Origin: Leptospiraceae bacterium | Lineage (GTDB): Bacteria > Spirochaetota > Leptospiria > Leptospirales > Leptonemataceae | Direction: 5' to 3' | Assembly: GCA_020440915.1 (NCBI GenBank) | Contig: JAGRNE010000009.1 | Coordinates: 1-33,100 of the forward strand | DNA length: 33,100 bases | Part shown: piece after piece, positions 6,936-33,100 of the stretch | Layout of the letters: each line of letters starts with the position of its first letter | How positions within the stretch are numbered: position 1 is the stretch's first letter | Translations under genes and position numbers: made by a program | Notes under the pieces: generated by a model | What the model was told of the DNA's origin: nothing | Databases searched by the model: none | Seen by the model: only the letters and a program-made list of their open reading frames with translations

Positions 6936-7134
6936 AGTTCGCAGTTCGCAGATCAGCCAGTCATTGGCATCCGATCCCGGGGGCACATTCGTACCACCAG
7001 GACCCGGAATGCGCCGTTTGCTGGAGGGTTGAATCAGTGGCGCCCCAGGTGATTCGTTTCGCTGGGGCCGGTACCAGATGTTCGCCAGAGAATGGCGAAG
7101 GAATGTGGCCACCGTCCTAACATTTGTGGCTTCA

Positions 7135-7170
7135 ATCAGAAGCGATCAGAAGCGATCAGAAGCGATCAGG
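7135..7170. repeat. 10-bp tandem repeat (AGCGATCAGA type), about 3 copies
   Basis: Three consecutive AGCGATCAG units at 7141, 7151 and 7161, preceded by a partial unit (ATCAGA) and followed by a degenerate one. It sits just downstream of the DinB-like gene (minus) in a non-coding gap and looks like a simple slippage repeat. Confidence 0.8.
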
Positions 7171-7201
7171 GGCAAGCAGAGGCACTGAAACTTAATAGGA
7201 T

Positions 7202-16912: not shown

Positions 16913-17629
16913 TCATCCGGAAGATATTTCGTACACTACATCGCCAATTCGCACAGTGCTGGATTCGGTTCCGTCTGTGGACCAGAGCTCGGCTCCATTC
17001 GTACCGTCGTTGGCCTTGAAAAATACCCGATTTCCCATTACGGTGAGTGACGATGGGGCGGAACTACTCGAAGGATTGATATTCTTGATCATGTTCGTGC
17101 CGGAAGCGGTACCGTCGCTGATCCAGATTTCTGATCCCTCCGTAGCATGATTGGCACGGAAGATAAGCTGGTCATTCAGAACCACCATAGATTCGATGCC
17201 TGAATTACCGGAAGGATTGCTCCTTGTTACCATTTCCGTGCCGCTTTCGGTTCCATTTGTTTTCCATAGCTCTCGTTCCCCGGTTGAATCTTCGGCAAGG
17301 AAGTAGACGATACCGTTCAGTTCGATGAAATGGCTCGGCGAACTGGAACCGGAGGTATTGATATTCTTCACCAGATACGTTCCTTCATCGGTTCCGTCCG
17401 TTCTCCAGAGCTCGTAGTCCGAGCTTCCGTCCATTGACCCTTCGAAAAAGGCGATCCGTGCACACTCTTGCGGAGCATCCGAAGTTCCGTGCACGGTGGG
17501 ATTAAGATTTCCGCAACTCTGTGAACTGGAAGCGGCCAATAGAGCCAGCAGCGCCATTTCATTTTCGCTCCTGCTTTTCTGGCAACTGGCCGCGAAGGCT
17601 AATGCGAACAATAAAAGAAGGATTTTCAT
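16913..17629 (-). CDS. lipoprotein with ELWxTDGT repeats, possibly truncated
   Basis: A 238-residue exported protein. The ATG at 17627-17629 is chosen because MKILLLLFALAFAASC then makes a signal peptide with Cys16 as the likely lipidation site, and GAGG precedes it. The mature part has four repeats of about 48 residues, each centred on an ELWRTDGTDEGT-like motif (ELW or EIW, then T/S-DGT or NGT) with a following VxFxA strand. Such repeats occur in surface and secreted proteins and probably fold as beta-propeller blades. Most such proteins have more copies. Here the fourth repeat ends abruptly at DVVYEISSG, so the gene may be shortened at its 3' end. Function unknown, likely envelope or surface. 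Confidence 0.82.
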   Translation of the reverse strand: MKILLLLFALAFAASCQKSRSENEMALLALLAASSSQSCGNLNPTVHGTSDAPQECARIAFFEGSMDGSSDYELWRTDGTDEGTYLVKNINTSGSSSPSHFIELNGIVYFLAEDSTGERELWKTNGTESGTEMVTRSNPSGNSGIESMVVLNDQLIFRANHATEGSEIWISDGTASGTNMIKNINPSSSSAPSSLTVMGNRVFFKANDGTNGAELWSTDGTESSTVRIGDVVYEISSG

Positions 17630-17983
17630 GGTGCCTCGACGATGCCTGCTTTGCCGGCCGGCCTGACCGCCATGCTGGTATTTTGTTTTCGCTATCATAG
17701 TGTTCTTCTCCCCGGGTCTCCGCTTTTGGTGCCGGCTGGTTGACCACCAGCCGGCAGGGAAACCGTTGCGTTATGGTAGAATCCCGGTGCGGGCTATCCA
17801 CGTCGGGTTCCGGCTTTCTGCCGGTGATGACTTATGATTCTATGGGATTCCAGGGGGAGTGTATTGGATAATACGGAGAAAAAGGCGCTCGGTCGCCCGG
17901 GCCCACACAGTCACTTTTGAAAACGAGTGGAAAAAACTTCTGGCAATTCCGCTATTCGGCGCCACGGTTATCCGTGCGAATCC
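17630..17983. other. 354-base divergent intergenic region with a strong hairpin
   Basis: It lies between the ELW-repeat lipoprotein (minus) and the AraC-type regulator (plus). It contains the hairpin at 17730-17756. No gene is supported. The AraC protein could start earlier (GTG 17927). Confidence 0.45.
17730..17756. repeat. perfect 11-bp inverted repeat
   Basis: TGCCGGCTGGT (17730-17740) and ACCAGCCGGCA (17746-17756) are exact complements around a 5-base loop. No T-run follows on either strand, so it is not a normal terminator. It lies about 100 bases upstream of the lipoprotein start and could be an operator or an mRNA structure. Confidence 0.7.
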
Positions 17984-30339: not shown

Positions 30340-31596
30340 ATGGAACCGTTCAAACTGGCAGATTGGGTTCTGCAGGGCACAGGCAAACTCAGCACGGATA
30401 CACTGAATGGGCTTCGCAGCTTCCTGCATCAATCCATGGATTGGTCTGGCGATCAACTGGAGAAGCTTTCGGATCAACCCATGATCCGGGAATCGGATGT
30501 TGGACGGGCTCTCTACCAGGCTTCACGTGGCATGAAGGAGGGAGCGGCGGCCACCTCCGATGCCCTCTCTGTGGCGGCCGGGGCTACGGGCTATGCATTT
30601 GAAGTGGCTCGAAAAAGCGTGGCCGACTCCGATCGCACGGTGGAGCAGATATTATTTGATAACGTTGCTGTGGCCAGTGTTGCCGGTTCCTCTTTTGCCG
30701 GAGTCACCATTAGCAAAATTCAGCCTTCCTTCCGACTGAATGGAGAAAATGTAAGCCTGGCGGATATTTCCGAGGATTATCGCCGACAGGACCGGGATTC
30801 TGTGAAGAGGGGACCTTTGCTGCTCATTCCCGGTCTTTTCTGCGATGAAAGCCTGTGGTCCGATTCTGGACAGCCAGAATCCTTTGCTGCGATGGTGCGA
30901 AACCTGGGCTACTATCCGGTGAACTTTCGCTTCAATCCAGGAAATCCCATACCGGAAAATGGCAGAGCTCTCTTTACCATGCTCAATGAGTTCTTTGCGC
31001 ATGAAGATTTCTATGAAAGTCGTCCCAGAGTACTATCCTACAGCCAGGGCGGACTTATCCTGAGGGCAGCCATCTATCTTTCCATGCAACCCGGGGCGCC
31101 GGTGGGGGACTATAGTCGCTGGCTGGATCATTCCATATTTATTGCCAGTCCAGACGGAGGTTCCTACATCGAAAAGCTGGGCTTCTGGATTGGTCTTGGT
31201 CTTTCCAGAGTGCCTCTACCTGTGGTATCTATTCTGGGCGCCATCGGAAATGAAAGAAGCGATGCAATGAAAGATCTTTCTCATGGCATTATTCGCGAAG
31301 AAGACAGGGCAGTGCACCATCCGGATCGCTACGGTCTGGACACCTATCACGGAGAATTGGATAACATTCCTGGAACTCAGATCTTCAGCTCGATATCCAA
31401 CAAAACGGAAATCTGGGGCTCATGGTTTGGCGATGGAGTTGTGGAAGACACAAGTCTACGAATGCTTTCGGATTCCGTGTTTCGAAAGAAGAAGAATCCC
31501 GAAGACCGCGTCCATCATCTGGAGGGACTCAGTCATTTCCAGATCATGAATTCGCCGGAGACGCTGAAAATTGTAAAGAGGATTCTGGCCGATTGA
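30340..31596 (+). CDS. alpha/beta hydrolase (lipase/PGAP1-like)
   Basis: A 418-residue protein without a signal peptide. Residues 1-150 are a helical, Ala/Ser-rich extension with no known motif. Residues about 155-418 form an alpha/beta hydrolase: GPLLLIPGLFCDESLWS (oxyanion loop region), the nucleophile elbow SYSQGG with S235 (Ser in place of the first Gly of GxSxG), and H399 near the C-terminus (HLEGLSHFQIM). The acid residue is not certain. The pattern fits lipases and PGAP1-like esterases acting on lipid substrates. No ribosome-binding site is obvious. It is followed 23 bases later by the exonuclease-TfoX gene, probably on one transcript, and diverges from the DUF4349 gene. Confidence 0.85.
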   Translation: MEPFKLADWVLQGTGKLSTDTLNGLRSFLHQSMDWSGDQLEKLSDQPMIRESDVGRALYQASRGMKEGAAATSDALSVAAGATGYAFEVARKSVADSDRTVEQILFDNVAVASVAGSSFAGVTISKIQPSFRLNGENVSLADISEDYRRQDRDSVKRGPLLLIPGLFCDESLWSDSGQPESFAAMVRNLGYYPVNFRFNPGNPIPENGRALFTMLNEFFAHEDFYESRPRVLSYSQGGLILRAAIYLSMQPGAPVGDYSRWLDHSIFIASPDGGSYIEKLGFWIGLGLSRVPLPVVSILGAIGNERSDAMKDLSHGIIREEDRAVHHPDRYGLDTYHGELDNIPGTQIFSSISNKTEIWGSWFGDGVVEDTSLRMLSDSVFRKKKNPEDRVHHLEGLSHFQIMNSPETLKIVKRILAD

Positions 31597-31619: not shown

Positions 31620-33100
31620 ATGCTCTATTTGATCGACGCCAGCGTTTACATCTTTCGAGCTTTCTTTTCTCTACCTGACAGTATTCGCGACAACCGCGGC
31701 CAGAGCGCTAACGTCATCTATGGCTTCGCAGACTTTCTGATTCGTTTTCGAAAAGAAAGCGGAGCCGTTAGAGGAGCTCTGTGTTTTGACGAAAGCCTCA
31801 CTACAAGTTTTCGCAACGAAATCGATCCACATTACAAAGCCAACCGTCCGGAAGCGCCGGAAGATTTGAAACGGCAGATGCAGGCCTGCAAGGATATAGG
31901 CAGGTTCATGGGCTTTCCGGTTTATGCCAGCCCCAGGTATGAAGCCGACGACCTCATCGGGAGTCTGGCGCAGCAACACAGACATTGGACTGCGGGGCCC
32001 ATCTGTATTGTTTCTACCGACAAAGATTTGCTTCAGGTTCTTACTCCTGGCGATGAGTTCTGGAATTTTGGTAAGAATGATCGCTTCGAAACGGCGGGAG
32101 TGCAGGAACGAATGGGGGTGGCCGCATCGCAGATGGCGGATTTGCTGGCCATCACCGGCGATGCAGTGGATAACATACCCGGTTTGCCCGGAATCGGCGG
32201 TACCACGGCAGCGAAATTGCTTCAGCATTACGGCAGTCTGGATGCTTTGCTGTCCAACCTGGACTCACTTGAGAAAAACAGTGAGATACGCGGAGCTCCC
32301 AGATTCAAGAGCATCATTGAGCAGAACCTGGATGTATTGGAAAGATCCAGAAAATTGACGGCCATTGTTACCGATCTGAAGGTGGAGAAGAACTCGAAGA
32401 ACCTGGAACTGAAAGCCCCGGACATGGAAAAACTCAAAGAATACTTCGACGATCTGGGAATCGGGGCCCGGCTTCTGGGGCGCTTGAACAGCGAGAGCGG
32501 AGGCGGCACTGGGCGCGAAAGCGGTCGGCGGAGGGAGAACAAGGGAAAGGAAAATGCTTCGGGCAAAATCAAGCAGAATCAAAGGGCTGGCAAAGGGGCC
32601 GCAAAACGCGACCCTGAAGTGGATTCCCGGGGCAAGGCTTCGCCAGGTGGGCAAAAGCAACTGCCCGGGCAGACAATACAGAGAAAACCGCGGGGGCCGA
32701 AAAATATGAAAAGAAGCGAATCGCAGGACTCGTTTGTAGAATACGTGGAAGATCTTTTCTCCGGGCTGGGACAGGTGAGCGCTCGAAAGATGTTCGGAGG
32801 ATACGGGATCTACCAGCGACAGAGAATGTTTGCGCTCATCGCCTATGACCGGCTCTATATGAAGGTGGACGATGTATTGATTCCGGAATACGAGAGAGAA
32901 GGAAGCGAGCCTTTTATTTACGAAAGCGAAGGACGAAAGCCGATTCAAATGTCCTACTGGAGCCTACCGGAGGATGCCATGGAAAGTCCTGCCCTGGCGC
33001 AGCAGTGGGCTCTCAAATCCGTGGAGGCCGCGATTCGGTCAGCGACCAAAAAGAAACCGGCGAAGAAGAGCAAAGCTACCGCTGGCAAGAAGTCCGCGAA
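31620..33100 (+). CDS. 5'-3' exonuclease fused to a TfoX N-terminal domain (runs off window)
   Basis: A continuous frame of at least 493 codons from ATG 31620, with no stop before the window edge. Residues 1 to about 295 are a complete PolA-type 5' nuclease (flap exonuclease). The acidic metal ligands are visible: D6 (LIDAS), D57 (CFDES), E108/D110/D111 (EADD), D134/D136 (STDKD) and D181/D184 (GDAVDNIPG). R76 and Y72-K73 lie in the HYKANR block, and a helix-hairpin-helix follows (LPGIG). Residues about 296-362 are a basic, Gly/Lys/Arg-rich linker. Residues from about 363 match the TfoX N-terminal domain: FVEYVEDLFSGLG, SARKMFGGYGIY, MFALIAYDRLYMKVDD, SEPFIYE and MSYWSLPEDA. A Lys/Ala tail (KKKPAKKSKA) follows. 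An internal ATG (32706) could start a free TfoX domain. Confidence 0.93.
   Translation, partial: MLYLIDASVYIFRAFFSLPDSIRDNRGQSANVIYGFADFLIRFRKESGAVRGALCFDESLTTSFRNEIDPHYKANRPEAPEDLKRQMQACKDIGRFMGFPVYASPRYEADDLIGSLAQQHRHWTAGPICIVSTDKDLLQVLTPGDEFWNFGKNDRFETAGVQERMGVAASQMADLLAITGDAVDNIPGLPGIGGTTAAKLLQHYGSLDALLSNLDSLEKNSEIRGAPRFKSIIEQNLDVLERSRKLTAIVTDLKVEKNSKNLELKAPDMEKLKEYFDDLGIGARLLGRLNSESGGGTGRESGRRRENKGKENASGKIKQNQRAGKGAAKRDPEVDSRGKASPGGQKQLPGQTIQRKPRGPKNMKRSESQDSFVEYVEDLFSGLGQVSARKMFGGYGIYQRQRMFALIAYDRLYMKVDDVLIPEYEREGSEPFIYESEGRKPIQMSYWSLPEDAMESPALAQQWALKSVEAAIRSATKKKPAKKSKATAGKKSA

Follow-up and report, generated by a model that had tools for sequence, protein, structure and literature searches.

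Bacillus subtilis FenA (YpcP) is a stand-alone PolA-type 5' nuclease encoded in addition to a separate PolA; it has both metal sites, with all eight Cat1 and Cat2 carboxylates, and acts in Okazaki fragment maturation (PMC10191290). In the flap endonuclease (FEN) of T5 these ligands are D26, D68, E128, D130 and D153 for Cat1 and D155, D201 and D204 for Cat2, and the three Cat2 aspartates are missing from the discrete FEN-fold protein Xni/ExoIX of Escherichia coli (PMC3783174). TfoX_N, the second domain considered here, is found in the Sxy/TfoX competence regulators (PMC6728893). It also exists as a stand-alone protein, of which one structure has been solved (2od0, VP1028). It is a common small domain for which we know of no biochemical role outside Sxy/TfoX. 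In the literature library searched, no paper joined the term "TfoX N-terminal domain" with exonuclease, and two broader matches dealt with type VI secretion in vibrios.

The DNA analysed here (the window, 33,100 nucleotides) is contig C450 of G000, a draft Leptospiraceae genome in 450 contigs that is 78% complete. Its plus strand ends in a single stop-free frame of 493 amino acids (31620-33098) that is still open at the contig end. The initial annotation had described this frame as a PolA-type 5' nuclease, a basic low-complexity linker, a full TfoX_N domain and a Lys-rich tail, read without interruption from the start at 31620 to the ATG of the TfoX part at 32706. All four parts are present in the one frame, the two start codons are in register (offset 1086, or 362 codons), and the assembled sequence has no stop between them. 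In a Pfam search of the full protein, 5_3_exonuc_N, 5_3_exonuc and TfoX_N all scored far above cut-off. The parts are as follows.

31620-32474, plus strand: discrete FEN-type 5' nuclease core, residues 1-285 (Pfam, invariant ligands, AlphaFold2)
32475-32705, plus strand: low-complexity basic linker, which aligns with the Lys-rich C-terminal tails of the separate nucleases of sister genomes
32751-33032, plus strand: TfoX_N domain, PF04993 (Pfam, match to 2od0, AlphaFold2)
33033-33100, plus strand: start of a Lys-rich C-terminal tail, within which the contig breaks

AlphaFold2, run with a 25-row alignment, gave confident domains at about residues 1-290 and 370-478 with a disordered segment between them (residues 297-368, pLDDT <50). 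The missing end of the TfoX gene could be inferred from synteny to be the opening of contig C428, whose bases 1-110 (L145:1-110) hold a matching Lys-rich tail end and a TAG stop adjoining hpt. The continuous frame is confirmed in the assembled sequence; one draft genome does not suffice to show that the organism has it too.

Both nuclease domains were matched (5_3_exonuc_N at residues 2-166, E 1.7e-40; 5_3_exonuc at residues 168-269, E 2.5e-24); only TfoX_N follows them, and polymerase domains are absent. Ligands were assigned by motif against the FEN carboxylates of PMC3783174. Cat1 (D6, D57, E108, D110 and D134) and Cat2 (D136, D181 and D184) are complete and invariant in seven aligned sequences, so that the acidic metal ligands reported by the initial annotation comprise all eight FEN ligands; D111 is likewise present and invariant across the aligned relatives. 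The pLDDT of the core is mostly >90, and the nearest solved relative is the 5' nuclease of Taq Pol (E 2.8e-36). The NCBIfam models for PolA, 5'-3' exonuclease and Xni match this part, each below its curated cut-off. Although ExoIX shares the discrete FEN fold (3zd8, E 3.7e-20), identity with Xni/ExoIX was rejected, as the Cat2 aspartates are retained and the NCBIfam Xni score is 124 against a cut-off of 261. Judged by its sequence, the nuclease is most like the discrete FENs that keep both metal sites, and it is predicted to be active. It resembles FenA in its eight carboxylates and differs from it in having a Lys-rich tail or linker and a frame that runs on into TfoX_N.

The discrete nuclease was found in the genus of the window genome, in one further member of the family (G009) and in part of the Gammaproteobacteria. 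In a tree, the nucleases of the genus and of G009 join the discrete nucleases of Gammaproteobacteria; the PolA 5' nucleases of their own class fall elsewhere. Long branches meet there, so that the join of the groups is uncertain. Each of the four sister genomes (G017-G020) also encodes a PolA 5' nuclease, as B. subtilis does beside FenA; none was matched in G000, where it is probably missing through the 78% completeness of the assembly. In the G009 nuclease (L005:1534-2526) the Lys-rich stretch is N-terminal, not C-terminal.

The TfoX_N domain occupies residues 378-471 (E 2.6e-28; 98.4 bits against a gathering threshold of 30.1; profile positions 1-91 of 91), has a pLDDT of ~95 and, as a full-length domain, matches the stand-alone 2od0 (E 8e-13). 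It differs from that protein in that a nuclease precedes it in the same frame and a Lys-rich C-terminal tail follows. TfoX_C was matched neither in the window protein, whose tail is cut by the contig end, nor in the sister TfoX proteins; by its domain architecture, this TfoX_N without TfoX_C is not a Sxy-type regulator, and no sign was seen of the CRP partnership by which Sxy/TfoX regulators co-activate CRP-S promoters. A ComEC homologue was found in G000 and three sisters. Its presence says nothing about TfoX_N, and nothing connects it with the window protein. Apart from the adjacency of the two genes nothing speaks for a role in competence or with incoming DNA, and the recognition of branched DNA raised by the initial annotation is likewise hypothetical.

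The four other genomes of the genus that were examined, each from a different species, all encode the nuclease, with its Lys-rich tail, and TfoX_N as two genes side by side. The two genes overlap by 1 nt in G018 (TAATG, L003) and by 4 nt in G017 (ATGA, L033:101-104); in G019 (L004) the nuclease stop lies 17 nt ahead of the tfoX_N ATG at 2745, and in G020 (L006) the gap is 92 nt. The adjacency in G017 was deduced across a contig break, its locus consisting of two consecutive contigs (L002 and L033) broken inside a 12-nt repeat that is unique in the G017 genome. Where contigs reach, the gene order is conserved: a lipase-like gene, the nuclease and tfoX_N, followed on the opposite strand by hpt and a SNF2-type helicase. 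The hpt side of the locus in G000 falls on the separate contig C428; the upstream gene, for which no Pfam match was found, is present:

30340-31596, plus strand: lipase-like alpha/beta-hydrolase gene with a GYSQGG-like motif, 77-86% identical in the sisters

The nuclease gene of G020 (L006:640-1831, G020:C232) is in two frames, split in the core just before the EADD motif; this may be a true break of the frame or an error of the draft. Of the five drafts of the genus, three have contig breaks within the Lys-rich tails of the nuclease or tfoX_N (end of L002, start of L033, end of L004, window position 33100 and L145:1-110), and low-complexity tails of this kind seem to break assemblies systematically.

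The segment between the two domains bears on how the single frame arose. T makes up 9% of the linker and 5-10% of the sister nuclease tails; because of this low content the linker is poor in stops and alternative frames are open in the sister tails. In three sisters the tfoX frame is open upstream over 77 codons (L003), 116 codons (L004) and at least 33 codons (L033), so that a single frame change in the tail would fuse their genes too. Three features mark the end of the linker.

32649-32705, plus strand: last part of the linker, with a better tail-coding score in the +2 frame than in frame 0; putative site of the frame change, whose exact base is not resolvable
32706-32708, plus strand: Met codon (Met 363) aligned with the start codons of the sisters' tfoX_N genes
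32707-32709, plus strand: +1-frame TGA sharing bases with the TfoX ATG (ATGA), the stop/start arrangement of G017

A GGGGG upstream of Met 32706, similar to a ribosome-binding site, gives an anti-SD duplex of -8.6 kcal/mol, stronger than at 90% of random positions. For the frame comparison, the window linker was scored with a codon model derived from the tails of the sisters, under two tail-composition weights. A switch from frame 0 to +2 near 32649 gains 7.5-9.4 nats over one uninterrupted frame. The maximum gain was 5.2-5.7 in 300 simulated in-frame tails (+2 switch) and 3.3 in the sister tails; in ordinary in-frame gene windows (n=98) it was 5.3 or 9.2 depending on the model weight, with one of the 98 windows at 9.2 under weight 0.6, near the 9.4 of the linker. 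The frame-change signal is modest, since the linker is short and its composition biased. Moreover, the +2 frame near 32649 stays open to 32846, beyond the TfoX start, and so a single switch there does not restore the layout of the sisters. That the fusion is an established domain architecture was not supported: the genes are two in all four congeneric genomes, the internal Met corresponds to their start codon and the linker carries the signature of a frame change.

The genus encodes a discrete flap endonuclease/5' exonuclease that carries a Lys-rich tail and, immediately after it, a small TfoX_N protein that has a Lys-rich tail of its own, an ancestral state read from the four sisters and G009, with one genome representing the window species. 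The two neighbouring genes are probably coupled. We think it probable that a frame-changing indel in the basic, stop-poor tail joined these coupled neighbours into one frame, the net change letting the nuclease frame run on into tfoX_N. If this is real, a polypeptide made of the FEN, a disordered basic linker of ~75 residues, TfoX_N and a Lys tail would be produced, and translation from the internal start codon (32706) would probably also yield some free TfoX_N. The expected work of the nuclease is the removal of 5' flaps and RNA primers in Okazaki fragment maturation and repair, and the Lys-rich stretches may add non-specific affinity for nucleic acids. TfoX_N would be a small protein-binding passenger module with at most a hypothetical effect on the nuclease. 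The apparent fusion looks like a recent or mis-assembled joining of neighbours and not like a new kind of enzyme.

The joining may also have occurred in the data, by a base-calling or assembly error in the linker, with the genes separate in the organism as they are in the sisters. Such a base error, which the initial annotation had itself considered, is in keeping with the frame-change signature, although a natural indel fits that signature equally. Several circumstances point the same way: the fragmented and incomplete draft (450 contigs, 78%), the closeness of the linker (400-600 bases) to a contig end lying within a Lys-rich tail, the +1-frame TGA that overlaps the TfoX ATG exactly as in G017, and the core frame break in the nuclease gene of the sister draft G020. 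Against an error, ~26 other window genes (~25 kb of coding DNA) align to sister genes in one frame each and clear frame breaks are absent, so that base-level indels should be uncommon in this contig (by the rule of three, perhaps <0.12 per kb), which favours a real joining. We regard the frame change as probably a real event and an error as a possible but less probable origin; both fall within the explanation that neighbouring genes were joined.

Wider pairing of the two proteins was surveyed. TfoX_N is present in 78 of 247 genomes of the phylum, and a frame shared with the nuclease was seen only in the window copy; the detailed look did not extend to three longer TfoX frames of the phylum (G044, 320 aa; G118, 272 aa; G117, 665 aa) or to the 337-aa frame of L055, one of the further TfoX_N loci. 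The nuclease match of G044 (frame of 1019 aa) is on a contig other than that of its TfoX_N, and the nuclease query had no match in L055. Among ~80 TfoX_N loci of other phyla, none was seen with the nuclease in frame. The initial annotation knew of no description of this fusion, and no second in-frame case turned up in the sisters, the class, the 247 phylum genomes or the ~80 other loci. A conserved family of nuclease-TfoX_N fusions was rejected, the one-frame architecture being confined to the window genome and the genes being separate in all sisters.

In a selected fusion, TfoX_N would serve to bind or steer the flap endonuclease (or the substrate of this enzyme), and the pair in five species, together with the fusion, would mark a shared pathway. 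Consistent with this, the pair is adjacent and co-directional in five of five species (in G017 across the contig break) and overlapping in two, both domains are intact in the fused frame, and of the 18 genomes of one gammaproteobacterial order that have both a discrete nuclease of this kind and TfoX_N, 15 carry them at a distance of 2-4.5 kb. However, the nuclease is divergent to TfoX_N in that order (L123-L130, L032, L092). The loci that were read have a TPR gene and an L,D-transpeptidase gene between the two; TfoX_N follows the transpeptidase gene and, in L092 and L032, overlaps its end. Other gammaproteobacterial genomes with both genes keep them on different contigs (0/6 together), as does G009, and other class members have TfoX_N without a discrete nuclease. 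A general nuclease-TfoX_N neighbourhood was rejected on the comparison of 15/18 in one order with 0/6 in other gammaproteobacterial genomes, and the pattern was taken as synteny of that order. A TfoX_N-L,D-transpeptidase fusion in G261 (688-aa open frame) was rejected as well, the two genes being in different frames. Selection for the fusion is unlikely in our view, and we likewise consider it improbable that the organism makes a single FEN-TfoX_N polypeptide in which TfoX_N acts on the nuclease or its substrate.

Programmed -1 frameshifting in the sister tails, giving a minor fusion product throughout the genus that the window species fixed in frame, is very improbable: tfoX_N is in the -1 frame in four of four sisters and open far upstream in three, but overlaps of the TAATG or ATGA type produce a -1 frame by themselves, low T (5-10%) accounts for the openness, the tfoX frame of L006 is closed downstream of the nuclease stop, and the repeats of L003 and L033 are without an obvious slippery run. 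A consistent slippery site was not found among the sister tails, and this candidate was rejected.

Elsewhere in the window, positions 7133-7180 hold a short tandem repeat of ATCAGAAGCG in 3.5 perfect copies, outside the longer predicted genes. A protein of repeated ELWxTDGT units is encoded at 16913-17698; with 261 aa it is less than half the length of its 566-aa counterpart in G019 (L144:4121-5821).

If TfoX_N did act on the FEN or on its substrate, this would tie the domain directly to DNA processing. A Rosetta-stone hint would come from a conserved gene pair with a discrete flap endonuclease that one lineage has fused. As it is, one genus has the pairing, with order-level synteny in a single order of Gammaproteobacteria, and the fusion is confined to a single draft. 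The main value of the finding is cautionary: where tails are Lys-rich and poor in T, one indel can be enough to make neighbouring genes look fused.
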